A DNA stretch of 64,000 nucleotides from assembly GCA_001247695.2 (NCBI GenBank), contig LGRX02034927.1, positions 1 to 64,000 of the forward strand. Reading direction: 5' to 3'. The notes under the pieces were generated by a model. That model did not search any database. It had not been told where the DNA came from and saw nothing but the letters and a program-made list of their open reading frames with translations. The translations under genes and the position numbers were made by a program. The first letter of the stretch is position 1. The number at the start of each line of letters is the position of its first letter. The DNA is from Cymbomonas tetramitiformis (lineage: Eukaryota > Chlorophyta > Pyramimonadophyceae > Pyramimonadales > Pyramimonadaceae). Below are positions 3,650-27,140 of this stretch, piece after piece.

Positions 3650-3997
3650 CAACCTGTCAGCTGCGGCCCCCGAGTTCCACAACACGACCCTCTGGGCCCT
3701 GGCAACTGGAACGGCCTGTTTGACACCTCCCATGGAGGAAGCTGTACGGTAGCCAAGTGGCGCCCTAATCCGCCCTCGTCATGCAAGAGCGGCGTCACCG
3801 GTGTTGACAGCTGACACCCCTGGTGCAGGGCTGAACATGAGGGCAACCCCCCAGCGTTATGTCAGCATGCTGACCCCTTCCCCTGACATCATGAGGCCGC
3901 CTGGAATCCGCGATAGGAGCCCTCCGCCGCCGCGCCAGCGAAGTCCGCCTGGAGCCCGCGATAGGAGTCCTCCGCCGCCGCGCCAGCGAAGATAGTC
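3650..3997 (+). pseudogene. Gag-like fragment, 5' part, split by the gypsy insertion
   Basis: On the plus strand this stretch matches, at DNA and protein level, part of the first gag ORF of the complete gypsy element (minus strand, about 16600-16770). Shared features are a TPGAGxNMRATPQRYV segment followed by repeats of the type SPPGxRDRSPPPPR. The frame stops at 3994-3996 only because the gypsy element inserted at 3997/3998. It resumes at 19266 with SPPRARDRTPPPPR. The fragment therefore belongs to a related gypsy family in the opposite orientation and is broken; no RT or protease accompanies it. Confidence 0.75.
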
Positions 3998-5321
3998 TGA
4001 ACAAGGCTACAATTCAAGCAATTGCAATATCTTTATGGCAGGAAAGATTGACCAGTAAATTAACAGGTTGAGCAACAGCTCCTCCAAATAGTTACTTCAA
4101 GTTAGAACAGCCTCCAAATGGGCAATATTCAAGTCTTATACTTTCAAGGCGCGCAGTTCATATTCTCTAATCGATCTGTCCCATGTCGGCTGGCATATCA
4201 TCATCTGCCACCTATACAAATCCTAATCAGAGAATATGCATTTGGACAATCCTAATCAAGACAGTTGATTTCATTGTCCCTTGCTGATCTTTGCTTTCTT
4301 CCTACGAGGAGCCACGTCAAGCCCTTCTTCTTCATCACTGTCACTTCTTATGGAATACTTCAATTGAGTTATATACTCATGTGTCCAACATCTCGGATAT
4401 TTCCTAGGTTGCCTCTTCGTCTCTTCAGACACCCCAGCCTCATTCTCACCCATTGAAGTCAATCCAGTATCTGACCCATAAGGTTTCTTCGGTGGTGCAT
4501 GAACAGTCTCCACCACAGAGGCTGGGGCATCCTCAGATATGGCCTCAGACTTCTGCTCGGTAATAGGCTGATCATCGGGCTGAACAGGTGAGGTCGGGGA
4601 GGTGCCCTTTGGTACCCAGTGAAGTTCACCCTTCTCATCCATGATCAATTGCAGTCCCAGTCTCTTCAACCTTCGAGCTTCAGCTTGTTCTTCAGCATCG
4701 TCAGCTACCAAGTCATCGAACTCGCTGACGTCATCCTCGGTGTCATCATATTCAGGCGAAGTTGGCTCCCATTTCGGACTGGCAGTGTCCATGTCATGTA
4801 TGACACCCGCGTCATCTTTGTCATCCGAATCTGGTAGCTTCTCCTTACTGTTAGTGACACCTGCGTCATCATTGTCATCAGAATCTGGTAACTTCTCCTT
4901 GCTCCAGGACACAGCGCCTGTACCCGAATCTTCACTGTTCGTAGACGCTGAGTGTGTAGGCTTACGCCCCTGGTAGGGAATTCCATGATATTCATCATCG
5001 TCAATCACAATCGTCGGATTCCAGTACGCGATCCCAACGCGGCTAATCGGTAATGAGAATGGCGCTACCGGCGCCTTCAACTGAGTGGCGTCTTCTAGAA
5101 ACCAGCCGCCGCCCCTATTACGCTCCCAGCGGCGTAGCGCACCAGAAGGGTGTACGATAATATGCTGCCAGCTATAATCAAGTCCAGGCTTTCGCTCCCC
5201 ATAGTACGAAGTCAATGGCTCGGGAGTCCCCTTCCGAGCCCATTGCCATCTCACTGCCCCAGTATGCATAAATACAATATGCCAATCGAATGGCTTGGCC
5301 GGGCTATTGTTCCCTGGCACA
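3998..5321 (-). repeat. 3' LTR
   Basis: Near-identical to 17942-19265, with an exact offset of 13,944 bp along the whole length. It ends TG/CA, is bordered on the inner side by the polypurine tract and on the outer side by the tagtc target duplication. It contains a long ORF (see 4271-5269). Confidence 0.96.
4271..5269 (-). CDS. LTR-encoded ORF, unknown protein (3' LTR copy)
   Basis: A 332-codon frame starting at the first ATG inside the LTR; it is open back to the LTR edge (another 17 codons). I do not recognise the family. The N-terminal ~110 residues look globular and aromatic-rich (WQW, SYYGERKPGLDYSWQH, ALRRWERNRGGGW). The middle is very acidic with two copies of a segment around KEKLPDSDD. 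The C terminus is a basic tail, PRRKKAKISKGQ, which resembles a nuclear localisation signal. The copy in the 5' LTR is essentially the same. Long ORFs inside LTRs are rare; the mouse mammary tumour virus sag gene is the known precedent for the arrangement only, not for homology. An accessory or regulatory role is a guess. Confidence 0.6.
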   Translation of the reverse strand: MHTGAVRWQWARKGTPEPLTSYYGERKPGLDYSWQHIIVHPSGALRRWERNRGGGWFLEDATQLKAPVAPFSLPISRVGIAYWNPTIVIDDDEYHGIPYQGRKPTHSASTNSEDSGTGAVSWSKEKLPDSDDNDDAGVTNSKEKLPDSDDKDDAGVIHDMDTASPKWEPTSPEYDDTEDDVSEFDDLVADDAEEQAEARRLKRLGLQLIMDEKGELHWVPKGTSPTSPVQPDDQPITEQKSEAISEDAPASVVETVHAPPKKPYGSDTGLTSMGENEAGVSEETKRQPRKYPRCWTHEYITQLKYSIRSDSDEEEGLDVAPRRKKAKISKGQ

Positions 5322-5335
5322 ACTCCTCCCCTCTT
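5322..5335 (-). promoter_or_regulatory. Polypurine tract
   Basis: On the minus strand aagaggggaggagt runs directly into the 3' LTR start TGTGCCAGGG. Position and composition fit the plus-strand primer for reverse transcription. Confidence 0.85.
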
Positions 5336-5401
5336 AGCTTGTTAGTACAAAGAGATGATAACTCAGAGTCATTTGTACAGCAGCTAAGATCCAGACACAG
5401 A

Positions 5402-8400
5402 TCAGCCATGCTTATGGATGCGTGATATGCTTTTCTGATCGAACAGGTGCTCGAAGAGTTGGCGAAGCAATCCAGAGGGCAGAGGGTATACAGCAGCGGA
5501 GACTCCCGCTCCTTGTTGCCCAGGATGAGGCCCCAGTTGAGCAGTTTCCGGATGTGATCCCAGCGTCTGTTGGTGAAGGCAAGGAGTATCCATCGTACAG
5601 TACCGCAGGTCCACTGGAGGAGGCGACTGTGTCCAGATGCAAGTAGGCTTGCGGTAGCCAGTGCCATACATACAGTAAGAGCAATACAACGGAGTGGGTA
5701 ACCGACGAACTACAGGTCGAAATCGCAGCGCAAAGGGAAACCTGCCCATCGGATTTTCCATAAACCAGTGCTTGGGTTTGAGGAAGTCGAAGATTTGGAG
5801 CGTACGGCGTACACAGGCATCAGCCTGTCGCAGTTGTCGCACCCCTGTGGTCTTAGCCTGACTGTATTCAGTGCACGGTGGGCTAGCCCAGATGACGTCA
5901 AAGTAACCAGGCGCGTAACGCTTGAAGTCCCAGTCCTGAACCTTCTCAGCGTAGGTAGGTTGCCAGCGAGGATCATGATCTACGGTGACCACGGTACTCT
6001 TCGGATAACATGACAGGAAACTTCTCTCCACACTACCTGTACCACTGAAAAGTACTAGTAGTCGCAACTCGCGTGTCGAGACCACAGAGTCCAGAAGAGC
6101 CAGATGCGTCACAAAGGCGTCAGAGGAGCGACAGTATTGTTCCCAAGGTAGGCAGTTGTCCAGAGAAAGAGGTTCCCTTTCATCAGCGGTGTCCAGGAAG
6201 GTTAAAGCTCTGGCGCGTTCCCGCCTTTGCTTCCGCTGCATTCTGACCTCCTGTAAGGCTTTTTCGCGGGCTTGTCCTTCTCGGGATAGTCTCAGTTGTT
6301 CAAACTCTGTGAGCTGTTCGAGTTCACCCCCGTAGTTCAACGACTCGCGAGTCTTCCAGGAGTCATGAGCATTAGAGTACCCAGTCCAGCGAACCAGAAA
6401 TTCTTCTACTTCCTTACCTCCTCTCGCAGGTTTCACTCTTCGAGCCAGAATCTTAGACACATGTGTCTGGGATTGTCCATCCACGAGAACCTTGGCAGGA
6501 GTAGGGGTTTGCTGACGCAGCGCAAAAGCTTCATCTGCAGTGCGGTATTCCTTGAGGCGATGCTGCGCAAAAACATCGTGAATACGCCATTTAGGGGGTA
6601 ACTTGAGCCGATAAGCTACCGGAGCACCTCTGTCAATTTCGGGTAGCTCTCGCTGCTGGTCACTGAAGAACCTCTCGGTGATGGGTAAGGGCCCGTGCCA
6701 GCGAGGTCCCAGCTTCCTGAAGGATTCGCGGTTCATGATATTTTCCGTGAGATGCTTGGCATCTACCCAGACCAAGTCTCCCAACTGAAAGGATTTGGCG
6801 GTGTGACGCTGGTCAAACTGATGTCGCTGGCGTTGCTGTGCCAGTTCTAGCTTAGTGCGGGCGTCCTCTAGTTGAGCCGCGAATTTACTAGCCATCTCGT
6901 GGGCAGTACCTTCTCCACCCTTGCGCCTGGAGTGTTGTCCAGCAGCGGCTTGCAGGAACAAATCCAGTTGCGACATAGGCGAGTGCCCCAAGACCAACTC
7001 GAAAGGGGTAAAGCCGGTTACATCGCTCCGCGTATCGTTTATGGCGAACTCCACGTTGGCACACCACAAATCCCAGTCCTCTGGATTGCTGCCTACGAAG
7101 GACCTCAGCATGTCTTCTACCACGCGGTTGGTATGTTCAGCTTGTCCGTCCGAACGAGGGTTATAAGGCGTAGTGGAGGCCACTTTGGTTCCCATAAGTC
7201 TCATCAATTCCTTCCACATAGCATCCTGAAAACGAGGGTCGCGGTCAGAGACAATCTTCATAGGGGTGCCATGTAGTTTCCAGATGTGGTCGAAGTAGAT
7301 TCGAGCTATAACCTCAGCGGAGCTGTCCTGGAAGTTCAACGGGATGATGTGAACCATTTTGCTGAGCTTACACGTGAAAGTAGCAAAGGCATCGTGATTC
7401 CGCGCCGTGACTGGCAGTCCAGTAACAAAGTCCACACTGACCACTTGCCATAGTCGCGTAGGAATAGTGTGTGGGTTCAGCAATCCATCCGGGTAAGAAT
7501 TTCTCGGTCGCACCGCTTGACAGATAGCACAAGATGAAACCCAGCGTCCCACATCTTCTGCTGCCCCTTTCCACCAGAAGCGTCGCAGGACTCGTTCCAG
7601 AGTTTTGTCCCTGCCCGCGTGTCCAGCGGAAACAGAGGCGTGCGCCTCTTGCAGCACTACCTCACGGAGTGGTGAATCTTCTCCCAGTACCAACTGATAG
7701 CGTCCAGCGCTCACCTTCCACAACACATTTCCCACCACGCAGAAGTCACGAGTGCGTTGATGCGGAGCTTCTTGGATTTCTTTCCTTAAAGTCTGTAGGG
7801 GGCCAGGTCGCCCATATTCCGCTTGCAGCGCTTTGAGAAACTGACCTCCTGATATCTGCTGATGCAGGTCTCGAACGCTGGCCGCTTCTCCCGTACGCAC
7901 GATAGGAGGAGGGGAACTCGTCTTCCTTTCCCGCTTGACACGCTGTCGAGCTGGCGGAGCGTACACCACTAGCAGGGGCCAAGGGAGATCCAGAAGGACT
8001 CCATCCGGGGCAGCGAACATCTGCACAGGTTCTCCTTGAGCGTCATGGGTAGGAATAATGTACTCCACTCTCATTCCCGCAGATCTGAACAACTGCCGCC
8101 ACTGTGGCATGCGAGACTGAAAGTCAGGAAGGACAAAGAGAGCTGAAGTATTCTCAGGGTCCAGACGCCATTCTTCCACATATCTCCTCAGTACGGCCTC
8201 GATGGTCAAATGGTTGGAGGAGAAGGGAGGATTGCACCAGACGTTCAACCCTCGCCAGTTTTCCTTCAAGCAGTCCGTCCAGTAGCGGTTGACCTGACGA
8301 TTCTTTCCTCCCAAGTCGCAACAGGCGTCCACCTCGAAAGGTCCATATTCTTGACTCAAGAAGTCGAACATGTCCGCACGGAACTTCCAGTCCTGTCGGT

Positions 8401-11400
8401 CGCTGGGCTCCAGGAGTCTGGTTGAGGCCTCGCTGCACTTTGGCGTTGCTGAGTAGTCAACAGGGGTCTTCCTGGGAGAAGGAGGCGAGGATGCTGTCAG
8501 TTTGCCAGAGCGCGTCTGAACTGCCAGGGTTGCTTCCTCGTACCCGGTTTCGGCCAGCTGCAGGGTATGTAAGGCGTCCATCCAGAGTTGAGGGGAGTCC
8601 ATCCAGGTGAGAGTCCCACTGTACGCGAGAACTGGTTCCGGATCTTTGGTCTTGGCGCTGTTGGACTTGCGCTCCTTCAACTTGTTGGGATCTACCACTC
8701 CCAGGGGCGCACGTCCTTGGCGAGACTCTTTACCAGCGGCAGGTCGAAACTTGTTGGCAGTGTCTGCGGCTGAAGGAGGTCGCTGCGGTTTCCCAGTAAC
8801 CGGGTGCACAAAGCCAGCTTCTACCAGTCCTTCTCTCGCGGAAATTTCCTTGTAGTCGGGTCGCCTGGACAGAGCGTCTGGAACCCAGAGTAGCGCCCCA
8901 GGAATGTACTCCATCTCGGGTACCCCTACCTCCACTAGATCCATGTACCAACGGGCTTGGCGTCGGCTGAGAGGTTGTCCGGGTGCCATTAACCAGACTA
9001 GGGGCTTATGGTCACCCTGCAATTGGAACTCGGTCCAGATGAGGTAGTGTCGCCAAGTTTGAGTAGTGCAGTGATGGAGAGCGCAGAGTTCTCTTTCGCC
9101 AGCATGGTAGTTCTGCTCGGCTCCATTAAACTGTCTGCTCTCAAAGGCGATAGGTTGCAATCCATTTCCTACGTCTTGCATCAGTACTCCCCCCAGCGCC
9201 ACTCCACTGGCGTCAGTTTGTACCACGAAAGGATGCCGTCCTTCGGCCGCCGCTTTCATATCGGGTAGCGCCAGAGTGGGTGAAGAACATAGCGCCTTCT
9301 TAATCTCCTCGAAGGCCCAACGCTGCATGGGTCCCCATAGCCAAGCGACATCCCCTTTGGTGAGCTGAGTCAAGGGTTGTGCTACTTCAGAGAAGCCCAG
9401 CATGTACCGCCGGTAGTACCCAGCCAACCCCAAAAATTGGCGCACATGCGTGGCGTTTTCCAGAGCGGGCCAGTCCCTGATGGCGGCCAACTTGTCATGT
9501 TGAGGTTGACTTCCTTCCCGTGAGATAACGTGCCCCAGAAAGCGTATCTGGGTCTGCAGTAGTTGACACTTAGACTCCTTGAGGTAGATGCCCTGGTTCT
9601 CACAGACTTCGAGAAATTGCTGGAGATGGGAAAGATGCTCCTCCAAGGTGTTGCTGAAGAGGATACAGTCGTCCAGGAATATTCTTACAAAAGGAAGATG
9701 TCCCAGAGCTCGCTGCATGCGTCTCTGATAGCAAGAAGGACTGTTGGTCAACCCCATGGGCATCACCAACCACTCATACGAGCCATAGGGAGAAGTGAAC
9801 GCCGTCTTTTCCACATCCTCAGACGCCATAGCCATCTGCCAGAACCCATCTACTGCATCGAAGGAGGAGAAGTACTTGGCCCCATGCATGGAGTCGAACA
9901 ACTGCTGAATGTCGGGAAGTGGATATTTGTCCTTGACGGTCAGGCTGTTGATGGCGCGGAAGTCGCAGACCATTCTGAGTACTTCAGGTTTCCCTGGCTT
10001 GGGAACCATCAGCACTGGTGCAGCGAACGGACTTGAGGAAGGCCTGATGTAGCCCTTACTCAGGAGTTCATCCAGGCGTTCTCGCAGTTGAGTCAGCTCC
10101 ACCATGGACATCTTATAGGGCCTCTTAGCAGGCGCGATACCATTCCATCCCTCTTGCAGTCTCACATGGGCCACTTCATCTTTTCGCAGGGCGTCAAAGT
10201 TGGGCAGCGCTTCGCGAATTACTCGAGGTGAAAAGGACTCGATCAGCTTTTGAAACTTCTTTCTCCACTCGGGGGAGATTGAAGGGTCCTCCAAACTCTC
10301 GCTGGTGGCCATCGCTGATAACATCGAAGTCCCTACCAAAGGTGTCGCATAGGCCACTAAGATGTCGTGGGGTGTCGCGGCACTGTCCATTCCCGCATAT
10401 CTGCGCCGATAGGCTTTGATCTCCTTGGTCGCTTGGGCCGCTGATAACATTACCATCGGTTCCAGAGCCATCGCGGTTCTCTCGCCTTTGCGTGTGGAGC
10501 TACGCCCCGGCGAACATCCCCGTATCCGCACGGATTTGCCATGATGGCGAAACTTGACTGATCCCCACCCATCATAGGCCAGCGTGACCGGCGAGAGGTG
10601 TCTCAACCACCTTCCTCCGAGTACAATGTCCACCTTGATGCCCAGAGGAAGTACTCGCATCTTGATGACCTCGGAGTAAGTCCCCTCTGAAGTCTCGGCG
10701 GTCAGCTTGCCGTAAGCGACTTGCGCAGAGGTCTGCACTGACCCATCCGCCAGGGTAACGTTCAGCGGCATTCCATTAGTGCGAACTGTGAGGTTCAATC
10801 TCTTGACGCACTCACTGGAGATGAATTCATCCGAGGCCCCAGAATCCACCAGCACGCGCACTCGCTGTCCCTTCAGCAAGGCCCAGAACACCAATAGCAG
10901 CGTTCCCTCTTTGTCCCGAATTGCAGTTAGCTGACTGTCCTGGTTCCACATTACTTGACCATCGCGTCGCAGATGTGCACAGATGGCTGCTCGTACTGGG
11001 TGATGCAAAGGTACGCGCTGCTTAGACCGGATAGGTCTTGTGCGCGGTGGTGCAGGCTGAGAACGATGATCCGGACCAAAGTACCATCCACCTTCCAGTT
11101 CGCGATCTGCTTGTAGCTGTCGCTCCTTGGCGCGTCGCTCCTGTCCTTGAACGCGTCGTCTGGCGCGGCTCTGCGTGCGGCTTTCCAGAGGGTAAGAGCG
11201 AAGAGGTTGGATGGAAATCTCTTCCTCCTCTTCCTCCCCAGAGCTATCTTCTGGTTCGGACTTTGGAGTGAAAGAGGGGGTTTCTTCTTCCCGCGGTGCC
11301 GCCTGAGCGTCGGTGACGTTCGCTGGTGCTGCCACTGCTTCATTACCTTCCAGGATCGGTCGCAGACGATGGCGTTGCTGTTTCTGAATGGTTAGTAGCA

Positions 11401-13102
11401 GTTCCAGGTGGGTTTCCTCCTGGATGGTTTTCAGGGGAGTCGGCTCCACTCCTTCTGTCACCGTTGTCAGCACACATGGATTGTTCTCCGATCTGGCGAT
11501 GGCCAGCTGTCGCTCCATCAACTGCTGCGTGAAGTTGAGCGACCGCTGGGAGTCCTCGAGGTCTGAAATGTCCCCAGAAGTTGCGGCCTGCGAACTGGAT
11601 GGAGATAAGGTTAAATCCAGAGTTGTCGCTGGATTCGCCTCTGATGGTTCCGCTGAGTCCAGGGAGAATGAATCACTTGCTGTTGATGGTAGGGTCAGGT
11701 GAGCCGCCTCTTCCGCAGCTTCCCTTTCTCGCTGGTTCCATTGGTGCACCCGGTATAGACTGCACCAGGCGTCTGGAATTCCTACATCTCCACCAGAACC
11801 TGGGATAGTACCGCACTCGGTCTCCAGAGATAGCTGAACCGCTCCTTCGGTTATCGTCAGGTCAGGGGTGACCTTCCCATGCCATCTGTACCAGCGGCGG
11901 CGATATCTGCGCCACCCTTCGGGTACCCATGCATCTCTCCATTTCTCATTCTCCTTTACCAGCGCTGCCGCGGCCATGTGCTCCGGGTGCGTCATCTCTC
12001 TCCAAGCGCGCGTGCGATCCGCCAGTGACTCCGCTCGAAGTCCTGGGGGTTCCTCTCCCAACCTCGTAACCTCTGCCTCATGCTGCAGTCGGTCTCGTAC
12101 AGTCCTCGGAATTCTGCTGCGAGGTTTTCCAGTGCGCTTGCGCGCTGCGCTCGTAGGGCGCTCTGCGCTTGGGGTTGACGCCCTGTCTGCCCAGGTTGGA
12201 CACGCTGCTGGTCGAGACGTCGAAGGAAACACCTCAGGTCGAAGTTTAAAAGGTGGGGGTTCGGAAGCTGGGCCAGTTTTTGAAGTTACACCCCCTTCCT
12301 CCCCACTGTCGTCCAGAGGGTGTGAAACCGCGGGTAGCGTTACATCCTGAATCCGCTGCCTCAAGGCTCGCATACGCTCCACCGGAGCTTTTCTCGGTAC
12401 CCGCGGTCGAGGAGTGTTCCGCCAGGGGGTGTTGAGTGGGTTGAAGGTCCACTGGGTCTCCTCTCCCTCATCCTCATCCAGTGCTGCCAGTACTGATGCC
12501 TCAGGGTTAGGGTTAGGGTTAGGGTTAGGGTTAGGGTTAGGGTTAGGGTCTGTGGGGTCAACGCGGGGCGTTTCGCCACGCTCGCGTTGTGGAGCCCGAC
12601 GGCGATCACCAGTTCCAAGGGAGCGATCTACACTGAACATAACGGGAGGCTTGGAGCGCTCAGGCGACGAAGTGGGTGACCTTCGTGGCGACCGCTGATG
12701 GCGCCGGGACACTAAGTGATGTTCTCGCCGGCCCTGCTCGGTGGAAAGGTTCGCTGTGTAAACAGCGGTACTGGTCAACGAGGGTTCATCCCGTAGGGTT
12801 CTGGTTCTGTCGAGATGGCGCTGTCGCCTCTGATCAGCAGACCAGGTGAATCCGTACCCTCGAGCGGCCAGAGGGTCGGGGGGTGGCGGAGGCTCTTTCT
12901 GGATATTCCCCCGGTGGTGGGCGAAGGCTGTACTCCTTGCCCAGGGGCGGTTACCCATACCGCCCTGTCGCCGGCGTCTCGCCGGCAGGAAGACACTCAG
13001 TCCTCCTCTTCCGCAGATTGCTGACCCGAGGAGGACGCTGCGGCCGATTCCTCGTTCTGAAAATACTCCAGCGCTTCCGCTTCCTCTTCCAAATCCTCCC
13101 AC
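5402..13102 (-). CDS. Gypsy pol polyprotein with Dam-like and C5-MTase-like domains
   Basis: Uninterrupted frame of 2,566 codons; the first ATG is at 12958. A long disordered N-terminal part includes an NP-dipeptide run (~184-198). Domains follow in this order: retropepsin (LVDSGASDEF, ~754); RT (~970-1200, active site FLDDCILFS, a YxDD variant); RNase H (TDASG ~1292, ERELCAL); a domain at ~1565-1715 like phage N6-adenine methyltransferases (EVDACCD, then WCNPPFS at ~1624); integrase with HHCC finger (~1820-1870) and catalytic core (SDRDPRF ~1954, DGQAEHTNR); chromodomain (~2219-2270, EEFLVRWTGYSNAHDSW); and a C5-methyltransferase-like domain (VLFSGTGSVE ~2350, SPPCTEYSQ ~2407, ENP ~2451). 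Its beginning overlaps gag-B by 106 bp in the -1 frame, so it may be made by frameshifting. All key catalytic motifs are present. The roles of the methyltransferase domains are inferred; either could be degenerate in function. Confidence 0.93.
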   Translation of the reverse strand: MGGFGRGSGSAGVFSERGIGRSVLLGSAICGRGGLSVFLPARRRRQGGMGNRPWARSTAFAHHRGNIQKEPPPPPDPLAARGYGFTWSADQRRQRHLDRTRTLRDEPSLTSTAVYTANLSTEQGRREHHLVSRRHQRSPRRSPTSSPERSKPPVMFSVDRSLGTGDRRRAPQRERGETPRVDPTDPNPNPNPNPNPNPNPEASVLAALDEDEGEETQWTFNPLNTPWRNTPRPRVPRKAPVERMRALRQRIQDVTLPAVSHPLDDSGEEGGVTSKTGPASEPPPFKLRPEVFPSTSRPAACPTWADRASTPSAERPTSAARKRTGKPRSRIPRTVRDRLQHEAEVTRLGEEPPGLRAESLADRTRAWREMTHPEHMAAAALVKENEKWRDAWVPEGWRRYRRRWYRWHGKVTPDLTITEGAVQLSLETECGTIPGSGGDVGIPDAWCSLYRVHQWNQREREAAEEAAHLTLPSTASDSFSLDSAEPSEANPATTLDLTLSPSSSQAATSGDISDLEDSQRSLNFTQQLMERQLAIARSENNPCVLTTVTEGVEPTPLKTIQEETHLELLLTIQKQQRHRLRPILEGNEAVAAPANVTDAQAAPREEETPSFTPKSEPEDSSGEEEEEEISIQPLRSYPLESRTQSRARRRVQGQERRAKERQLQADRELEGGWYFGPDHRSQPAPPRTRPIRSKQRVPLHHPVRAAICAHLRRDGQVMWNQDSQLTAIRDKEGTLLLVFWALLKGQRVRVLVDSGASDEFISSECVKRLNLTVRTNGMPLNVTLADGSVQTSAQVAYGKLTAETSEGTYSEVIKMRVLPLGIKVDIVLGGRWLRHLSPVTLAYDGWGSVKFRHHGKSVRIRGCSPGRSSTRKGERTAMALEPMVMLSAAQATKEIKAYRRRYAGMDSAATPHDILVAYATPLVGTSMLSAMATSESLEDPSISPEWRKKFQKLIESFSPRVIREALPNFDALRKDEVAHVRLQEGWNGIAPAKRPYKMSMVELTQLRERLDELLSKGYIRPSSSPFAAPVLMVPKPGKPEVLRMVCDFRAINSLTVKDKYPLPDIQQLFDSMHGAKYFSSFDAVDGFWQMAMASEDVEKTAFTSPYGSYEWLVMPMGLTNSPSCYQRRMQRALGHLPFVRIFLDDCILFSNTLEEHLSHLQQFLEVCENQGIYLKESKCQLLQTQIRFLGHVISREGSQPQHDKLAAIRDWPALENATHVRQFLGLAGYYRRYMLGFSEVAQPLTQLTKGDVAWLWGPMQRWAFEEIKKALCSSPTLALPDMKAAAEGRHPFVVQTDASGVALGGVLMQDVGNGLQPIAFESRQFNGAEQNYHAGERELCALHHCTTQTWRHYLIWTEFQLQGDHKPLVWLMAPGQPLSRRQARWYMDLVEVGVPEMEYIPGALLWVPDALSRRPDYKEISAREGLVEAGFVHPVTGKPQRPPSAADTANKFRPAAGKESRQGRAPLGVVDPNKLKERKSNSAKTKDPEPVLAYSGTLTWMDSPQLWMDALHTLQLAETGYEEATLAVQTRSGKLTASSPPSPRKTPVDYSATPKCSEASTRLLEPSDRQDWKFRADMFDFLSQEYGPFEVDACCDLGGKNRQVNRYWTDCLKENWRGLNVWCNPPFSSNHLTIEAVLRRYVEEWRLDPENTSALFVLPDFQSRMPQWRQLFRSAGMRVEYIIPTHDAQGEPVQMFAAPDGVLLDLPWPLLVVYAPPARQRVKRERKTSSPPPIVRTGEAASVRDLHQQISGGQFLKALQAEYGRPGPLQTLRKEIQEAPHQRTRDFCVVGNVLWKVSAGRYQLVLGEDSPLREVVLQEAHASVSAGHAGRDKTLERVLRRFWWKGAAEDVGRWVSSCAICQAVRPRNSYPDGLLNPHTIPTRLWQVVSVDFVTGLPVTARNHDAFATFTCKLSKMVHIIPLNFQDSSAEVIARIYFDHIWKLHGTPMKIVSDRDPRFQDAMWKELMRLMGTKVASTTPYNPRSDGQAEHTNRVVEDMLRSFVGSNPEDWDLWCANVEFAINDTRSDVTGFTPFELVLGHSPMSQLDLFLQAAAGQHSRRKGGEGTAHEMASKFAAQLEDARTKLELAQQRQRHQFDQRHTAKSFQLGDLVWVDAKHLTENIMNRESFRKLGPRWHGPLPITERFFSDQQRELPEIDRGAPVAYRLKLPPKWRIHDVFAQHRLKEYRTADEAFALRQQTPTPAKVLVDGQSQTHVSKILARRVKPARGGKEVEEFLVRWTGYSNAHDSWKTRESLNYGGELEQLTEFEQLRLSREGQAREKALQEVRMQRKQRRERARALTFLDTADEREPLSLDNCLPWEQYCRSSDAFVTHLALLDSVVSTRELRLLVLFSGTGSVERSFLSCYPKSTVVTVDHDPRWQPTYAEKVQDWDFKRYAPGYFDVIWASPPCTEYSQAKTTGVRQLRQADACVRRTLQIFDFLKPKHWFMENPMGRFPFALRFRPVVRRLPTPLYCSYCMYGTGYRKPTCIWTQSPPPVDLRYCTMDTPCLHQQTLGSHPETAQLGPHPGQQGAGVSAAVYPLPSGLLRQLFEHLFDQKSISRIHKHG
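12509..12549. repeat. Telomere-like (TTAGGG)n array inside pol
   Basis: About seven perfect ttaggg units on the plus strand, read on the minus strand as alternating Asn-Pro codons in frame with pol. The hexamer is the telomere repeat of many eukaryotes, but here it is coding and stays in frame because six is a multiple of three. Confidence 0.9.
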
Positions 13103-15483
13103 TCTGTTTCCAGCGCTGCGATATGAGATTCATTTGCAGCGCGGCGGCGTGCCAAACGAGCTGGGGCGTCAGCAATCCAGGCTCGTTTCTTGGCCTCGTC
13201 GGGACAGTTAGCCCATAAATGGGAGTCAGAGTTGCAGACGTAACATCGGCGTGGCGGCCTGGTCAATCCCGCCGGGCTGGGCGGCACGGCGTGCTGCACC
13301 CTGAGGTCGGCGGGGTCGGGGTCAGTAGCATCTTCCTCCCCAGCGTCCTGCACGGCGTTAAGTCTGGAGGACGAGCGACCATTCCTCCAGGCAGGACTTC
13401 GATTCGCAGGTGCCGAGGCGGGAGAGGTTCGCGCTGCGGTTAGAGCTTCACTGCGCTCCAATTTGGTGGCCACAGTGATGATATGCTGCAGCGCGGTGGA
13501 TCCGGGATGATTGCTTTCCCAATCCGCTTGACTTTGCAGATCCAACCGATCCTCAATAAGGCGATCCATGACAGCTTGCTTCAGTCGCAGTCCAGACCAG
13601 AACTGATATAATAGCTGCTGTTGGCTGATGGCGGGGCAGTTGGGCATGGCGTCTGCCAATAACTGGACTACCTCGTGCCAGGATACCAGACGAGTAGCGA
13701 ACAAACGCGCAGTCTCTTCTCGTCGCTGCGCCATGCGCATCACTGCCCCCGCTAGTCCTACCAGCGCGATGTCATCCAGTACGCTCCTGGCTACGTCGGC
13801 CAGGAAAGGCGCCAAAGTGGCGTAACGCCGGTTCCAGGCCTCCGAGTTCATCATCCCACCTTGCTTGAGAAAAGTTAGGGATCGCGGCTGTAGTTTGCGT
13901 TGAGCCACTTCCTTCAAGATCTCCGGCATGGTGATCATGGTTAGGTCTAGGCGATAAGCACTCATGCGACCCAGGGCGAAGGTGACTACGCCCATTGACA
14001 GAAAATTGACCAGCGCTTCAGAAAAAGGTGAAAGCGCGGCAATATCTGCGTCAGTGGTGATTAGGTCAGCGGAGGAGGGGTACATAGGAATGTCTCTGAT
14101 CAGCTTGAGCACATCAGCCACTGTCTTGGATTCTCGGTAGACATCACTTGGGGAAGCCGCTCCCATAAGATCGTGGTGCCCTGGGAATTGAGAAAGGCGC
14201 TGGTCTACTGGCAGGAGTCCCGGGGCCGCTGGCAAGGAATTTCCAGGCGATCTGTACTCTGCTGCGCTGGGAACACCAGAGGGAAACCGATTGACGCCCA
14301 GTCTAGCCGGGACTGTGGCGGGAGTTGGTTGGTTGCCAGCCGCCATTCCTCTAAACAAGTACGCCTCGGAAGATGAAAATGTTGCCCAGATTTGGAGTCC
14401 TAGGGGGTCAAATTCTGTCAGCTCGGACTCTAAGGCATTTTCCGCGATGGTTACCCATGAGTACAAGGGCAGGCGTCTCTGCTGAGTTCCGGTACGGCTT
14501 TCCGCGCAACGCCGCGCTTCATCCACTTGCGTTTTCTCCACTTCCAGAGTGAAAGCGTCACTGTCCTCAATCTCAGTCAGGCGCACAGGAGTATGCACTG
14601 ACCCATGCTGCGCCAGGTCTTGGATGTCCACTCCGATGTGCCGCATAGTCATCCAAATCCGATTGGTATCGGTTATGAAGTGACTGGCGCTTCCAGGCAT
14701 GGTTGGCAGTCGGTAAGAGTATTGTGCCTCAGCGCCGTGGCGGACAGTAACTGCGGAGGAAGAGGACAGGTGATTTCTCAACCAGAAGGAGGCTCCTTCT
14801 AAAGTCCATAACAACACATCTAGACGCCGGTGTCGTGGTTCACCATTGTCTGAAGGCGGGGGCGAGTTTCCTGGTGACGGTTGATCAGGCTCAGCGGAGT
14901 CAGAGGGCGAGGAGCCGGTAGCCGGTGGATCTGGCTGAAATGGTGCCGGCGCCGGATGAGCCGGTGCCGGAGCCGGTTGAGCCGGTGCTGGAGCCGGTTG
15001 ATCCGATGCGGGAACCGGTTGAGCCGGTGCTGGTACCAGCCAGGGACCTGATCCAGCTGCTGGCGCCGGTGCACCTGGTAAACCGCTCGCCCATCCTAAG
15101 GTGTGCTGGTAGGGCGTCATAGGGGGAGCGCCCACTGCTGGTAGAACTGAAGTCAGATGTGGATAGTGTTGGAGCACTTGCTGATGCAGATTTTGCATGT
15201 ACTCTGATACCTCTAACATCATCTGATTCTGCATTAGGGATTGATGCTGAGAGTTCAGTGCGGGGACAGAGGCATCTGAGGGCGTTCTCGCTGAGGCGGG
15301 GTCAGAGAAGAGTGCTCTGCGCTGTTCTGCCAGGCGCTGCTGGTTCTGTTCCCATCTCTGATGGCGCCTCTCCCGGCGAGAAAGCTGGTTCACTGAGTCT
15401 GAGTTCAGAGGTAAGTTTCTGACTGGAATTCTGCTGAGGACATCTGCTTGAGATGGGGGTCGATGACTGGTAGGTTGCGGTTA
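12997..15483 (-). CDS. Gag-B with CCHC zinc knuckle
   Basis: About 800 codons. The frame is open from 15483 but has no obvious ATG near its start (the first codon of the block beginning NQLSRRERR is GTG), so it is probably reached by a -1 shift from gag-A, which it overlaps by about 75 bp. A Pro/Ala-rich repeat (QPAPAPA type) covers about 111-154 of the GTG-based numbering. The central part is helical and capsid-like in position. CYVCNSDSHLWANC at ~714-727 is a classic CX2CX4HX4C nucleic-acid-binding knuckle. A Glu/Ala-rich C terminus overlaps pol. It is the structural protein of the element's particle. Confidence 0.85.
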
Positions 15484-17084
15484 AGATGCGGCTGGTAGGC
15501 TGCGAGTCCAATGCTACGCCTGAGTGCGAGGTCTGCGTAACTGACTGAGCTGACTGGCTGCTCCGTAGTTGTTGAGGGCAGCGAGGTAGTCAAAGGGCTG
15601 GACTCGCGGTTCAACAGGGACTCGGGCATATCCGTAGTTGTTGAGGTCAGCGAGGTAGTCAAAGGTCTGGACTCGCGGTTCAACAGGGACTCGGGCATAT
15701 CCGTAGTTGTTGAGGTCAGCGAGGTAGTCAAAGGTCTGGACTCGCAGTTCAACAGGGACTCGAGCATATCCGTAACCGTAGCCGCCTCCGTAGTCGCCTG
15801 AGTCAGTGAGGGCGTCAGTGAAGTTGCCTCGCTGTCTATTTCGGACTCGAAAGTCACCGATAACCTTGCCATAGAGTCACCGATCACCTTAGGTTCGGTA
15901 ACGGTATCGGTAATCGGTGAGGTCAGCGAATGCTCAGAACATGCTATGCTTATGTGGCGTGGGCCACCTGTCAAGCCGGAGCCACCTGTCCTCCCCGCTG
16001 CCCCCACCTCCCCGTAGCTTGTTGAGGAGGGAGTTGGATGCATTGAGTGTGCTATGAGTTCGCCAGCCATGCTTTGGTGCGTGTCCTCTGACCTCCCCGC
16101 TGCCCCCACACCCCCTTGGTTAGGGCGCGGAGTCCAGGCGAGATTCTCACCCGGCTGCTGGCGCTTTCGCCAGTTGGCCACATCAGAGCGGGAAGGAAAT
16201 TGACGAAGTCCTGGTTTCTGCTCATTCGCCTCATTCTGCATGTCCTGCTCACATGCTGCAATTTTGACCTCGGTCATCTCGCGCACGACGATCGGGTCGC
16301 GAGGTGGTCGGTCAGCCGGTAGAGGTTGTCCCACAGAGGCTGCTCCCGCGGACTCAGCCTGAAGCGCGTTCTCGCTGAATGGCGTGGGCAGCTGGCCGTG
16401 CGGGGAGGTCATCACCGTAGCTCCAGACCAAGTGTGTGGAGTCCTGTAGGAGTTCAAAGGACTTCGCGGTCTTGGAGCTGGAGGACTCATGTCGCGCGTC
16501 CGTGGTGGGCTCCTGCAGCGCGGCGGTGGCGGGGTCCGGTCTCGAGTCCGAGGCGGGCTTCGCTGGCGCGGAGCTGGAGGGCTCAGGTCGCGGCTTCCTG
16601 GCAATCGCAGGATGCCAGGGGAAGGAGAGGTCAAGTTGACATACCGCTGGGGAGTCGCCCTCATGTTTCGCCCTGCACCAGGGGTGTCAACAGTCAGCAC
16701 CCTTGGTGACGCCGCTCTTGCATGACGCAGGGGCGGATTAGGGTGCGGTTTAGGTACCGTTACAGCCTCCTCCAGGGAAGGTGTCACACAAGCGGTTCCA
16801 GAGTCCAGAGCCAGAGGAGTCACGCTGTTAAACTCAGTAGCATCAGCTGACAGGGTCGACTTCTTCTTGGGAATCTGGAAGCTTGGCGCACCTGCTGCTG
16901 TCGCAGCCGGTGGCGGCTGACCCGGAGAGGGCGCCTTGTAGGTGCCCTTCGCCCCCTTGCCAGTGGTCCCAGTGGCGGCAGCACCTCTCGTGCTGCGCTG
17001 GCTGGCCTGTCGTCCCCTTGTACGCCGAGGAGTCGACGTAGGCGACGTTGGAGGTGAGCGTCCCGTGTTAGCGTTTTGCATCAT
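15405..17084 (-). CDS. Gag-A, low-complexity first ORF
   Basis: 559 codons from the ATG at 17082-17084 (a second ATG follows directly). The N terminus is Ser/Thr/Arg-rich. Residues ~148-201 hold repeats of SPPRTRDRTPPPPR type, an SR/RS-like basic pattern shared with the gag-like fragment at 3650-3997. Residues ~436-503 hold three 23-residue repeats containing DMPESLLNRESRPLTTSL, encoded by a 69-bp DNA repeat. No known domain is recognised. It is the first ORF after the leader and ends in TGA at 15405-15407 within the open part of gag-B. It may be the N-terminal part of a longer Gag made by frameshift, or a separate protein. Confidence 0.75.
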   Translation of the reverse strand: MMQNANTGRSPPTSPTSTPRRTRGRQASQRSTRGAAATGTTGKGAKGTYKAPSPGQPPPAATAAGAPSFQIPKKKSTLSADATEFNSVTPLALDSGTACVTPSLEEAVTVPKPHPNPPLRHARAASPRVLTVDTPGAGRNMRATPQRYVNLTSPSPGILRLPGSRDLSPPAPRQRSPPRTRDRTPPPPRCRSPPRTRDMSPPAPRPRSPLNSYRTPHTWSGATVMTSPHGQLPTPFSENALQAESAGAASVGQPLPADRPPRDPIVVREMTEVKIAACEQDMQNEANEQKPGLRQFPSRSDVANWRKRQQPGENLAWTPRPNQGGVGAAGRSEDTHQSMAGELIAHSMHPTPSSTSYGEVGAAGRTGGSGLTGGPRHISIACSEHSLTSPITDTVTEPKVIGDSMARLSVTFESEIDSEATSLTPSLTQATTEAATVTDMLESLLNCESRPLTTSLTSTTTDMPESLLNRESRPLTTSLTSTTTDMPESLLNRESSPLTTSLPSTTTEQPVSSVSYADLALRRSIGLAAYQPHLNRNLPVIDPHLKQMSSAEFQSETYL

Positions 17085-17927
17085 GTCGAAATTAAGAGTG
17101 ACAAAGTGCAAATCTGACCGTTGGGGAAGTCAAATCTGTCCAATTTGGCAAATCCCCCCAGAACACTCAGAAAAATATTTCCTTGTAGCAGTGGAAGTCG
17201 TGGTGAATAACGAAATATGCTTTCCAGAGTGAAATGCAAGTTTTGGTGGCCAAATTTCAAAAATGGAGTGTCGATCGGCAGTTTGGCTAATTTCATCTTG
17301 GCGGCCATCCCGGAGCAATCCAGACTAATTGGCCAGGACCCAGTATTGGAGACTATTTTTTTCCTTCAAAGGATATAAAAAAAATGGAAAACTATCCTTC
17401 TGGGCTCCCGTTTCCTTCTATGTAGTCTGCTGGGCTCAAATTGGTCTAATTCTTGCTCTGCCGTGCCGGTTGGCCATCCGAATTTAAAATGTAGCGATCT
17501 ATGAGGACCCAGGTCTCGGGGCCAGGTTCCAAACGATAAAAAACTATCAAGAAACGTCTAGAATTTTTGTGCCTACGTTAAAACGGTCTCCGAGGTCCTC
17601 TTTTTCTCAATCTGCCACTGATCCACTTTTCACTCTCCGTTCGGGTCAATCTGGCTGTTAATCCCGGTAGATCTGAGTTGCTGGCGGCTTCTTTTCCCAC
17701 TTTCTGACCACTTTGCAGCATAACAGTTTTGAAAAATCGCCTGTTTGCATGCAGGGTGAAAGTCAGGGGGCAAAAAGGGCGCAGAGCAATACCACTTCCA
17801 AGTGAAGACTTCTTGAGCACGTGACTGTATCCGAGCCTGAGCTCAAGGGTCAGTCAGAGGTAAATCTTGCTTCAATCTTGGGGCACAGGTCCGTAGTCGG
17901 CAATTTTGCAGTGTACAAAATTGCAAT
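17085..17927 (-). other. Leader (5' untranslated region) of the gypsy element
   Basis: About 840 bp between the primer binding site and the first gag ATG. No ORF with a protein-like pattern is present. It has A/T-runs near 17350-17390 (an aaaaaaat tract) and probably contains packaging signals, which I cannot identify. Confidence 0.7.
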
Positions 17928-17939
17928 GTTCTGATACCA
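17928..17939 (-). promoter_or_regulatory. Primer binding site, initiator tRNA-Met type
   Basis: On the minus strand TGGTATCAGAAC begins two bases after the 5' LTR. It differs by one base from TGGTATCAGAGC, the widespread primer binding site complementary to the 3' end of initiator tRNA-Met. Confidence 0.9.
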
Positions 17940-17941
17940 GT

Positions 17942-19265
17942 TGAACAAGGCTACAATTCAAGCAATTGCAATATCTTTATGGCAGGAAAGATTGACCAGT
18001 AAATTAACAGGTTGAGCAACAGCTCCTCCAAATAGTTACTTCAAGTTAGAACAGCCTCCAAATGGGCAATATTCAAGTCTTATACTTTCAAGGCGCGCAG
18101 TTCATATTCTCTAATCGATCTGTCCCATGTCGGCTGGCATATCATCATCTGCCACCTATACAAATCCTAATCAGAGAATCTGCATTTGGACAATCCTAAT
18201 CAAGACAGTTGATTTCATTGTCCCTTGCTGATCTTTGCTTTCTTCCTACGAGGAGCCACGTCAAGCCCTTCTTCTTCATCACTGTCACTTCTTATGGAAT
18301 ACTTCAATTGAGTTATATACTCATGTGTCCAACATCTCGGATATTTCCTAGGTTGCCTCTTCGTCTCTTCAGACACCCCAGCCTCATTCTCACCCATTGA
18401 AGTCAATCCAGTATCTGACCCATAAGGTTTCTTCGGTGGTGCATGAACAGTCTCCACCACAGAGGCTGGGGCATCCTCAGATATGGCCTCAGACTTCTGC
18501 TCGGTAATAGGCTGATCATCGGGCTGAACAGGTGAGGTCGGGGAGGTGCCCTTTGGTACCCAGTGAAGTTCACCCTTCTCATCCATGATCAATTGCAGTC
18601 CCAGTCTCTTCAACCTTCGAGCTTCAGCTTGTTCTTCAGCATCGTCAGCTACCAAGTCATCGAACTCGCTGACGTCATCCTCGGTGTCATCATATTCAGG
18701 CGAAGTTGGCTCCCATTTCGGACTGGCAGTGTCCATGTCATGTATGACACCCGCGTCATCTTTGTCATCCGAATCTGGTAGCTTCTCCTTACTGTTAGTG
18801 ACACCTGCGTCATCATTGTCATCAGAATCTGGTAACTTCTCCTTGCTCCAGGACACAGCGCCTGTACCCGAATCTTCACTGTTCGTAGACGCTGAGTGTG
18901 TAGGCTTACGCCCCTGGTAGGGAATTCCATGATATTCATCATCGTCAATCACAATCGTCGGATTCCAGTACGCGATCCCAACGCGGCTAATCGGTAATGA
19001 GAATGGCGCTACCGGCGCCTTCAACTGAGTGGCGTCTTCTAGAAACCAGCCACCGCCCCTATTACGCTCCCAGCGGCGTAGCGCACCAGAAGGGTGTACG
19101 ATAATATGCTGCCAGCTATAATCAAGTCCAGGCTTTCGCTCCCCATAGTACGAAGTCAATGGCTCGGGAGTCCCCTTCCGAGCCCATTGCCATCTCACTG
19201 CCCCAGTATGCATAAATACAATATGCCAATCGAATGGCTTGGCCGGGCTATTGTTCCCTGGCACA
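17942..19265 (-). repeat. 5' LTR
   Basis: Near-identical to 3998-5321. On the minus strand it ends in ...CTTGTTCA, two bases before the primer binding site. The promoter should lie here, but I could not assign a TATA box or the U3/R/U5 borders with confidence. Confidence 0.96.
18215..19213 (-). CDS. LTR-encoded ORF, unknown protein (5' LTR copy)
   Basis: This is the duplicate of the ORF at 4271-5269, produced with the LTR. The open frame continues upstream past the LTR border to about 19300 without an ATG, so the ATG at 19211-19213 is the likely start. If the element's promoter lies in U3, this copy would be at the very 5' end of, or upstream of, the genomic RNA, while the 3' LTR copy would lie at the RNA's 3' end. 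Which copy is expressed cannot be read from the sequence. Both copies are intact, but because reverse transcription copies one LTR into both, this does not show selection. Confidence 0.55.
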   Translation of the reverse strand: MHTGAVRWQWARKGTPEPLTSYYGERKPGLDYSWQHIIVHPSGALRRWERNRGGGWFLEDATQLKAPVAPFSLPISRVGIAYWNPTIVIDDDEYHGIPYQGRKPTHSASTNSEDSGTGAVSWSKEKLPDSDDNDDAGVTNSKEKLPDSDDKDDAGVIHDMDTASPKWEPTSPEYDDTEDDVSEFDDLVADDAEEQAEARRLKRLGLQLIMDEKGELHWVPKGTSPTSPVQPDDQPITEQKSEAISEDAPASVVETVHAPPKKPYGSDTGLTSMGENEAGVSEETKRQPRKYPRCWTHEYITQLKYSIRSDSDEEEGLDVAPRRKKAKISKGQ

Positions 19266-19307
19266 TAGTCCGCCTCGGGCTCGTGACCGGACCCCTCCAC
19301 CGCCGCG
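19266..19307 (+). pseudogene. Gag-like fragment, 3' remnant after the gypsy insertion
   Basis: Starts with the duplicated target tagtc and reads on the plus strand SPPRARDRTPPPPR, the same repeat that stops at 3997. It ends exactly where the inverted LTR-like arm starts (TG at 19308). The gag was therefore already truncated, by fusion to an inverted LTR, before the complete gypsy element arrived. Confidence 0.75.
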
Positions 19308-20515: not shown

Positions 20516-22395
20516 TCAATCGCTAAGACCACTCGCGTCAGATTCCCATCCGCCCTCGGGTATGATCGTCACTTCGGCTCGTACTCCCGCTAACGCTATC
20601 GGTTCCGGTTCAAACTCGGGCAGGTCACTCTCAACAACAGCTGACTGGACTAAACCGCTCATCTCGCTTAGATCTTCCCTGACAAGCAGTTCAGACAGGA
20701 ACGCATGCACCTCTTCATGTAGGGTCAGGTTGTGGAAAAGCTGTTTTAACAGTGCTGAAGGAATCCCATACAAATTCTCTCGCGCTCCCATGCCCTTCGC
20801 AAACACACCTCCGGCTCTCATCGCGCGCCCTCCCTGCGCGACCTTCTCGTGCCTACCGTGTTGCCGGAAGAATTCGCAAGGCGTGTCGGCATCGCACACT
20901 CGCAGGGGTGTGCGCAACGGGACGTTGGTCCAGATATGCGTGGGTTTTCTGTAGTCGGTCCCGTATTTACAGTATGTGACGAGGTGCGGAGCTGGTAGAT
21001 TGCGCATGCATCGACGCGTGTGCAGACCGTGGGGCTCTCTTCCCTTCGGGTTCTCAATGAAGTATGCTTCGGGCCTCAAGTACCGGATGATCTCCAATGT
21101 CCTACGAACTCGCCTGTCCGCAGCGCGCAAATCTCGGATGCCTACTGTCTTTGCCTGGCTGTACTCTGTACAAGGTGGGCTAGCCCAGACTACGTCGAAG
21201 TGTCCCGGTCTGAAATGTCGGGAGTCCCATCGCATGATATCCTCGCAATGTGTGGGGCCCCACTTGGGCTGAATGCCTACGGCAACTACTTCGCTATTGA
21301 GAAACTGCTTAGTAAACTGCCTCTCGACTGACCCGGTCCCACAGAACAATACGAGAATTTTAGACTGGCCGACTGGCTCCTTCTCAAGTGCTGCGGCTCC
21401 GTTGACTGGCGGCAGGGTGCCCTGAGCGGCGGATACTCTCGCGAAAGTTCCTACTTTCTCATCAAACCTCTCCTCTAGCACCCATGGCATTGCGCCGTCT
21501 ACCTTGAGCTCCTCCGAAAGTGTGGTCCACATTGCTCCTGCGGATTCGTCGCGCCTCTTACGGACTCTAAGCTTCTCTCGCTCCACTCTCTTAGCCTCGA
21601 TCCTCTCAAACTCCAACAACGCCCGGTTGGGAACGCCGGGCCTACGCCGGCTCCGTCCCACTCCAGATCCTCTCGGGTCTTCCACTCGTTCTCACTGCGG
21701 GGCATCCCTGTCCACTTGACTAGGTACTCCGTCCACCTCCTGCCCTGACGCTGGCGCGTACGCGAACGCTCCACCCTCTCGACGTGGGTTTCCTTGCGTC
21801 CGCTGACGTCCAACGGAGGAGGGGGGATCTCCTTAGCTCTCTCGACAAAGCGGCACGCTACTCGACTCCACCGGCGAAAGCCGGTTCACGGTGAACACAT
21901 CGTGCACTTTCCACTGCTTAGGAGTCTGCAACCTATAGGCCGACGGTGCGCCCCTATCGCTCGCGGGAAGGGCCATCTGCCTGCCGCTGTGAAAGACTTC
22001 CAGCACCCGAAGGGGTCCGAGGCGCTTCTTAAGCAACTTCTTGTGCAACCCGCGGTCGCCCGGCTGGGTGAGGTACGTGGCGTCTACCCAAACCTCATCA
22101 CCTACTGCGTAACTCCTGGCCTTGTGACGCGCGTCGTACTGGGCGATCTGCTGCTGCTGAGCCAAGAGCAGCTTCTCCCTAGCGAGCTGCAACTGGCGAA
22201 CAAATTGGCGGGCTGTCTCGTGGGCTGTACCCTTTTTTACTGCTGCGCCCCTCCCCCCCTTAGCTCGGCCTCTCCGTGATGCAAGTGCTGCCTCCACGAA
22301 GAAGTCTAGTTGAGAGGCCGGAGCGTGACCGTACGTCAGTTCAAAAGGGGTGAAGCCCGTGACGGCGGAACGAGAGTCATTGAGCTGCTGCGAGG
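20516..22395 (-). pseudogene. Second gypsy family, pol C-terminal part (integrase end, chromodomain, C5-MTase-like)
   Basis: Three minus-strand blocks in different frames (about 22395-21833, 21813-21499, 21685-20516) make up the C-terminal part of a gypsy polyprotein. In order they show the integrase C-terminal part (AVTGFTPFELTYGHAP), a region like the linker of the complete element (GDEVWVDATYL), a chromodomain (WTEYLVKWTGMPRSENEW), and a C5-methyltransferase-like domain (VLFCGTGSVERQF, WASPPCTEYSQAKT, ENPKG). The protein is clearly diverged from the complete element, so this is a distinct family with the same domain order. Frame changes near 21820 and 21600-21680 mark it as decayed. It is cut at 22390-22395, where a plus-strand fragment of the first family starts. 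Confidence 0.85.
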
Positions 22396-22481
22396 ACAAC
22401 ACTCCAAGCGCAAGGGTGGAGAAGGTACCGCACACGAGATGGCTAGCAAATTCGCGGCTCAACTGGAGGACGCCCGCACTA

Positions 22482-26858: not shown

Positions 26859-27140
26859 TGCAAAGTGCTGCTGTAAACGTGCAAGCTGCGTGGTGTGAAG
26901 ACTGAACAGTAGCGCCGCCAAAATTCGTCCGACAGCCGAATTGTCCTACCGCCAAAATTTGACCGACCGCCAAAATTTGTCCGACAGCATCATCCATGAA
27001 TTCAAAGCTCAGTCAGGGCTACGCAGACTGAACGGTACTCTACGGTTCGCGCGCGTTTCGGTTCTGGAGTTTCGATCCAACCTCCCTCGTTTGCGCTGAA
27101 GACGCAAAATAGCGTTACAAATTTATGATGACACTTGACA

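Follow-up and report, generated by a model that had tools for sequence, protein, structure and literature searches.

Cytosine methylation is a classic host weapon against transposons; why would a transposon carry DNA methyltransferase domains of its own? The question is raised by a retrotransposon with long terminal repeats (LTRs) in a 64,000-nucleotide stretch (positions 1 to 64,000 of contig LGRX02034927.1, here called the window) of the green alga Cymbomonas tetramitiformis. Its Pol polyprotein ends in a predicted C5-cytosine methyltransferase domain (C5) and holds a Dam-like N6-adenine methyltransferase domain (Dam) further upstream. This young, high-copy element thus bears virus-style cytosine and adenine methyltransferase domains in an intact frame, under purifying selection about as strict as that on its integrase, and may use the pair to tag DNA of its own. 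The genome holds no fewer than 150 near-identical copies of C5, and metagenomes hold kin, so that the question of why a transposon would methylate DNA becomes testable.

The reading we prefer, and to which we give about an even chance, is that a small C5 domain of virus type was captured long ago by a Ty3/Gypsy chromovirus and maintained together with a phage-type Dam domain, the two methylating the element's own complementary DNA (cDNA). In the particle or pre-integration complex both domains would remain alongside the reverse transcriptase (RT) and the integrase; the new double-stranded cDNA would receive 5-methylcytosine and 6-methyladenine before or at integration, with the chromodomain steering insertion. 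The marks would make the cDNA resemble host or already-handled DNA and so shield it from nucleases or foreign-DNA sensing; alternatively, they would set the chromatin state at landing. The predicted fold, the catalytic residues, the constraint and the recency of the element are what was observed; the self-methylation is what we infer.

The C5 domain, its kin and its Dam partner

The initial annotation, made from the sequence letters, had recognized C5 motifs I, IV and VI, with the catalytic cysteine in PPC, and this was borne out: in an alignment of 72 element-borne C5 domains, from which all the residue counts given here are taken, the catalytic Cys81 and the motif VI Glu120 are each present in 72 of 72 rows, with ENP in place of ENV, and the AlphaFold model of the domain is confident (pLDDT 91) and shows the Rossmann-type C5 fold. 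Motifs VIII, IX and X had been called not obvious, but VIII and X now have candidates (YRKPTCIW and YPLPSGLL); the former, compared with the arginine of QxRxR, was placed from motif order rather than by residue-level structure alignment, and at its position 155 the letters listed for the 72 rows are R 42, K 12, Q 7, M 5 and A 1, with four gaps. Cys148, Cys173, Cys179 and His188 make a possible zinc site. Residues 2330–2566 are best described as a complete small C5-cytosine methyltransferase domain, as predicted from the model. Grouping with a family of other than DNA methyltransferases, or loss of the catalytic cysteine, would have told against the annotation; instead, both the fold and the sequence indicate a C5 methyltransferase, with an invariant cysteine.

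In structure comparisons with VIA-align the C5 model aligns best to DNMT3A/B and M.HhaI; as the DNMT3 hits share 14–17% identity with it, we read DNMT3 as top structural match in terms of fold and size. The best viral fold match is the putative cytosine DNA methyltransferase of Tetraselmis virus 1 (A0A2P0VN45; TM 0.81/0.88, rmsd 1.8, 36% identity), a standalone gene product of 218 residues, from a giant virus of a green alga. At the level of sequence, the PHROG_757 'DNA methyltransferase' profile matches residues 14–184 of the 237 at E 9.4e-17, and the NCBIfam dcm profile matches weakly. As a single query against PDB chains the domain found nothing at E below 0.4, and DNMT3 chains were absent from the PDB sequence search at E ≤ 1 with the domain and at E ≤ 0.1 with the C5 profile. 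Phage and virus kin were found in Haloferax tailed virus 1, Bacillus phage BM15, PinkBerry phage and inoviruses (five of the 14 phage records with a match were inspected), and the C5 alignment as query found 25 loci in IMG/VR viral contigs, where a single standalone C5 protein gave 13 pattern matches and no relatives. The nearest kin found thus appear to be phage and virus enzymes of about 210 residues, not eukaryotic DNMTs. The suspicion of a divergent, ENP-type group was right as to divergence, and the group is probably that of the small phage/virus-type C5s (PHROG_757). Capture of a host DNMT, as in Klebsormidium nitens, is disfavoured by the absence of DNMT3 chains from the listing and by the PHROG_757 match.

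The annotation's further claim, that one polyprotein holds two different DNA methyltransferase-like domains, is supported by the Pfam model PF05869, which matches Pol above its cut-off (36.4 bits against 28.1) over residues 1567–1636 (profile positions 7–78 of 169); the NPPF there fits the [DN]PP[YF] motif, and the putative Dam lies between RNase H and integrase. The same pairing is found in viruses: at least three of the 25 viral loci have a Pfam-confirmed Dam gene on the same contig as C5, with overlapping frames in L003, about 550 bases between the two in L002 and about 2.9 kb in L001. The Pfam Dam model was run on these three of the 25 loci; the Dam scan profile (A3) was built from L001–L003, the window and the metagenome contig L026, whereas a retroelement Dam profile made independently picked up, of the three, L003 alone. 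Three Dam neighbours is therefore a lower bound.

The element, its copies and selection

The element reads as a full-length, recent Ty3/Gypsy insertion. Its two LTRs, 1324 bp each, start with TG, end with CA and differ at two positions, the 5-bp duplication GACTA stands on both sides, and a primer-binding site and purine tract adjoin the LTRs; the order RT, RNase H, integrase, together with the chromodomain, the LTRs and the target duplication, is that of Ty3/Gypsy chromoviruses. The primer-binding site, TGGTATCAGAAC, resembles the initiator tRNA-Met type; the tRNA-Met at 46472–46544 of the window does not match it. The upstream frame, the gag-like frame and pol each lie in the next successive −1 frame, the gag-like frame overlapping pol. 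Pol matches the Pfam models of aspartic protease, RT, RNase H, Dam, H2C2, SH3_Tf2-1 and chromodomain, with the core integrase below its cut-off. No restriction enzyme was seen among these Pfam matches, and this speaks against the proposal, made for retrotransposon methylases generally (PMC6338049), that such enzymes protect the host cell from DNA viruses, to the element's indirect gain; numerous endogenous viral elements are reported in the Cymbomonas genome (PMC10675990), but we regard this role as highly improbable.

The genome searched comprises 851.7 Mb in 25,745 contigs. All 150 scored C5 places, the best 150 of 8185 first-look candidates and including the window's own, are at least 98% identical to the domain, 61 of them fully, and 147 are free of stops; with whole Pol as query, all 18 scored places (the best 18 of 30,213) are 97–100% identical, 15 of them stop-free. 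For a variant survey, 110 of the 149 other C5 places were taken, and 109 passed the placement filter. Variants present in at least five copies comprise 30 synonymous and four nonsynonymous changes (pN/pS, the ratio of nonsynonymous to synonymous polymorphism, 0.04), those in at least two copies 62 and 15 (0.08), and among singletons there are 45 synonymous and 47 nonsynonymous changes, one stop among the latter (0.33). The ranking of these 109 copies by their C5 protein score depresses dN, a sampling bias checked through the one-pair dN/dS alone.

That ratio of nonsynonymous to synonymous divergence, dN/dS, was determined by segment for a single pair, the window Pol and one 97% copy (L151). 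It is 0.049 for C5, 0.045 for Dam, 0.038 for integrase and 0.082 for protease, zero for RT and RNase H, 0.102 for the SH3–chromodomain part and 0.083 for the linker between RNase H and Dam, and rises to 0.27 across the first 700 residues of Pol and to 0.53 in the linker that precedes C5. In this pair, then, selection constrains C5 and Dam about as tightly as the integrase. The dS of C5 against L151 (0.23) is twice that of whole Pol (0.115) despite the low dN, and recombination between subfamilies is a possible cause.

Captured genes can ride along for some time, and the domains could be decaying passengers without a present role. The variant counts and dN/dS contradict this, as purifying selection acts on C5 and Dam but not in like measure on the linker that precedes C5, and the catalytic Cys and Glu are kept in relatives down to about 35–60% identity; we find the idea hardly credible. 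The enzymes might instead act in trans on host chromatin, methylating insertion sites or the wider genome and reshaping silencing to the element's benefit. The fusion of C5 and Dam beside integrase and chromodomain, and the high copy number, would suit such a role, and an effect on the host methylome was raised for Symbiodinium by de Mendoza et al. (PMC5890265). Action in cis on the cDNA is simpler, however, and a literature search turned up no methylome for this host; we consider action in trans unlikely.

Relatives of the element and C5-like tails

The C5 region matched 71 proteins. C5 is C-terminal in 65 of them, Dam is present in 52 (phmmer, E ≤ 0.01), and 50 combine Dam with a C-terminal C5. 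All nine that bear an organism name are from Cymbomonas tetramitiformis, the closest by identity being CYMTET_48393 (93% over 52% of the queried region), and related elements occur in public metagenomes. C5 lies at the N-terminal side in P0025, P0065 and P0069, between RT and integrase in P0071 and within a Ty1/Copia polyprotein in P0070; the domains listed for P0072 are not those of a retroelement, and two Prorocentrum proteins (P0125, P0142) also have a C5 domain. Several metagenome contigs with these Pol proteins are 12.3–12.8 kb long, as if one LTR and the internal part had been assembled. A PHD finger (PF00628) is also listed in some of the polyproteins (for example P0016, P0021, P0026 and P0039), and P0092 is a standalone-like Cymbomonas gene. 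L026 (1–9867) encodes RNase H, Dam (27.4 bits, just below the cut-off), integrase, chromodomain and C5, followed by an open frame of 1825 codons; it is labelled as bacterial (a Verrucomicrobiaceae metagenome-assembled genome), and from its domain order it looks like a misplaced eukaryotic retroelement.

Both C5 trees were built without eukaryotic DNMT rows. A quick tree of 134 rows, with 41 fragment rows and near-duplicates left out, P0070 and P0071 included and a warning of long branches, these two among them, gave one group (SH-aLRT 93) holding 57 of 58 retroelement rows, both copies in the window, L026 and 19 of 52 standalone rows, and a second (SH-aLRT 99) holding 16 of 21 viral rows, 26 standalone rows and P0071; five viral and seven standalone rows fell outside both. 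In a more careful tree of 63 rows selected from these, without P0070 and P0071 and with its root not secured, the retroelement group has support 90/89 and its larger, mainly Dam-bearing part 99/97, inside which eight standalone proteins of about 210 residues form one clade (99/90). The RT tree splits nearly the same Dam and no-Dam groups. These groupings make one old acquisition of C5 by the main retroelement lineage likely; P0071 and P0070 may represent separate acquisitions, and some freestanding C5 genes may derive from retroelement domains.

The RT-region search, of whose 1849 matches the best 120 were listed, added 76 new proteins, and from these 30 near relatives were hand-picked on identity and source. 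Five have C5 matches, 17 stop before, at or soon after the integrase or chromodomain, and eight combine Dam with a motif-less tail of 228–282 residues past the chromodomain. Profile–profile comparison of such tails with C5 gave E 4e-7 (probability 93) for P0239, P0241 and P0245, 5e-7 (92) for P0243, 2e-5 (76) for P0238 and 1e-4 (57) for P0233 and P0237; the P0238 and P0025 tails taken jointly gave 7e-8 (95). In eight controls, reversed tails and other segments, E was never below 0.09; for P0065 and P0069, whose tails are unrelated, it was 0.055 and 0.09. For P0262 the comparison (E 0.32) did not establish the tail as a relic of C5. PPC and ENP are missing from the C5-like tails; in the RT tree the elements bearing them are nested, in more than one place, in the Dam-bearing group (58 rows, support 100), and P0025 has both an intact C5 at its N-terminus and a C5-like tail at its C-terminus.

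Several observations weigh against the reading that the element methylates its own cDNA. In addition to the score-ranked copies and the single pair behind the selection estimates, PF00145 scores 19.8 bits on Pol, under its gathering cut-off of 22, and 19 of the 71 relatives have no Dam. In the PDB search with the C5 profile, DNMT2/TRDMT1-type tRNA methyltransferases come top (E 2e-5), followed weakly by DNMT1. The DNMT2 matches count in favour of an RNA target for C5 (genomic RNA, the tRNA primer or an RNA:DNA hybrid) rather than double-stranded DNA, and RNA has been suggested for SymbioLINE-Dnmt (PMC5890265). The standalone kin, however, are genes of DNA phages and viruses, in at least three cases next to a Dam gene, and the C5 model aligns best to DNMT3 and M.HhaI; an RNA target seems to us very unlikely.

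The tails are the last such point. Seven sisters (P0233, P0237–P0239, P0241, P0243 and P0245) and P0025 seem to keep the C5 fold without its catalytic residues, so that a scaffold can matter apart from catalysis, and the fold might be retained chiefly for scaffolding or DNA binding, as in DNMT3L, with catalysis secondary. The profile–profile matches (E 1e-4 to 7e-8) suggest as much, but plain profile search of whole proteins misses these tails (best stretches E 0.005 to 9), and the window's own lineage combines invariant Cys and Glu with the low dN/dS of C5; we judge this distinctly unlikely. More tentatively, it is possible that an LTR lineage, seemingly widespread in metagenomes, gained a virus-type pair of cytosine and adenine methyltransferases and doubly self-marks its cDNA, and that C5 moved, lost catalysis in some members (DNMT3L-like partners, once beside a live N-terminal copy) and was perhaps re-released as a freestanding gene.

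The window and known systems

The coordinates are collected below. The open frame that fills most of each LTR has no Pfam match and, among 267 compared proteins, matches CYMTET_48393 and P0078 only; the CYMTET_48393 protein runs from part of C5 on into this frame. Elsewhere in the window, 20516–21691 (−) with 21833–22513 (−) is what remains of a second, different element; its C5 domain (P0080, about 50% identical) is complete and has Gly for the motif II Asp, the sole such case in the 72 rows. Fragments of the element's own family lie at 22902–23561 (+; integrase end to chromodomain) and 31388–31778 (+; linker and C5 start, 53 residues, 98% identity), and two overlapping long open frames at 24418–26945 (−) are reminiscent of a tnp2/CACTA-type transposase.

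Features of the element in the window, with the viral stretches compared (in coordinates of their own loci)
Feature	Position	Strand	Remarks
Complete Ty3/Gypsy (chromovirus-type) LTR retrotransposon, 15,268 bp	3998..19265	-	LTRs, TG...CA ends, 5-bp duplication
5' LTR	17942..19265	-	
3' LTR	3998..5321	-	
349-codon open frame in each LTR	4274..5320 (3' LTR), 18218..19264 (5' LTR)	-	
Target-site duplication	3993..3997		TAGTC on +
Target-site duplication	19266..19270		TAGTC on +
Primer-binding site	17928..17939	-	TGGTATCAGAAC
Polypurine tract	5322..5335	-	AAGAGGGGAGGAGT
Upstream open frame, 574 codons stop to stop	15405..17129	-	no Pfam match
Gag-like frame	12997..15480	-	CCHC knuckle CYVCNSDSHLWANCPDEAK by eye; no Pfam match
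Pol polyprotein, 2566 residues	5402..13102	-	protease, RT, RNase H, Dam, integrase, SH3, chromodomain, C5
Aspartic protease, residues 743-834	10601..10876	-	Pfam
RT, residues 1033-1193	9524..10006	-	Pfam, E 8e-32
RNase H, residues 1256-1390	8933..9337	-	Pfam
Dam-like N6-adenine methyltransferase domain (putative), residues ~1560-1735	7898..8425	-	NPPF at 8222-8233
Integrase H2C2 and core, residues 1810-1982	7157..7675	-	core PF00665 25 bits, cut-off 32.6
Chromodomain, residues 2214-2258	6329..6463	-	Pfam
C5-cytosine methyltransferase domain (predicted), residues 2330-2566	5405..6115	-	last 237 residues of Pol
Motif I	6026..6055	-	VLFSGTGSVE
Motif IV	5858..5887	-	ASPPCTEYSQ; catalytic Cys at 5873-5875
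Motif VI	5750..5758	-	ENP; Glu at 5756-5758
Motif VIII candidate	5633..5656	-	YRKPTCIW; K156 in 68/72, others gaps
Possible zinc site C148, C173, C179, H188	5552..5674	-	target-recognition region; kept in 67-70/72 rows
Motif X candidate	5465..5488	-	YPLPSGLL; P213 in 68/72, L216 in 66/72
Viral C5 and Dam stretches	L001 2650-6648; L002 5115-6700; L003 4080-5256		

Retrotransposon capture of C5 in charophytes and dinoflagellates, which the initial annotation had mentioned, is indeed published, for KnitGypsy-Dnmt3 of K. nitens and SymbioDIRS-Dnmt3 and SymbioLINE-Dnmt of Symbiodinium (PMC5890265), but the KnitGypsy and SymbioDIRS domains are classed there as Dnmt3 of host origin. Like them, the window element has C5 inside Pol and under purifying selection; unlike them, its C5 appears to belong with the small phage/virus enzymes (SPPCTEYS, ENP) and shares Pol with Dam. 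DIRS-type retrotransposons, as cited in PMC5890265 and PMC6338049, likewise carry a Dam-like adenine methylase, whereas here an LTR element of the Ty3/Gypsy type, equipped with integrase and chromodomain, carries it, and Dam lies between RNase H and integrase, paired with C5. DAM- and DCM-encoding Ty3/Gypsy and DIRS elements are reported from several groups including green algae (PMC6338049), the available text not stating that both occur in one element. A 2025 survey places DNMT3 in Copia and DIRS elements, the word Cymbomonas being absent from it (PMC12344493), and the Cymbomonas paper of 2023 speaks of chromoviral pol genes and has no 'methyltransferase' in its main text (PMC10675990). An orchid Ty3/Gypsy m6A demethylase (PMC9289625) and the methylome of an algal giant virus (PMC12700378) leave our reading of C5 and Dam unchanged. 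The double set, which had been thought new, appears to be so, since no report of virus-type C5 and Dam in one Pol was found in searches of one open library, subscription papers and repeat databases not being covered.

Among viral enzymes, the small C5s of PHROG_757 (Haloferax tailed virus 1 gp60, Bacillus phage BM15 gp128) resemble the window C5 in size and core motifs, and the Tetraselmis virus 1 protein resembles it in fold; the PHROG_757 enzymes, at 28–32% identity, are standalone viral genes, whereas the window C5 is a fused retroelement domain. The ParB-methyltransferase of the Ectocarpus DNA transposon Sola1-1_Ec32 likewise puts a DNA methyltransferase of prokaryote type into a mobile element of an alga, but it is a separate gene of a DNA transposon, and of predicted N4-cytosine or N6-adenine type (PMC12477816). 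Already published, then, are Dam in DIRS elements and, in both Gypsy and DIRS elements, C5 of the Dnmt3 type; what appears to be new is the combination of a virus-type C5 with Dam in one Pol.
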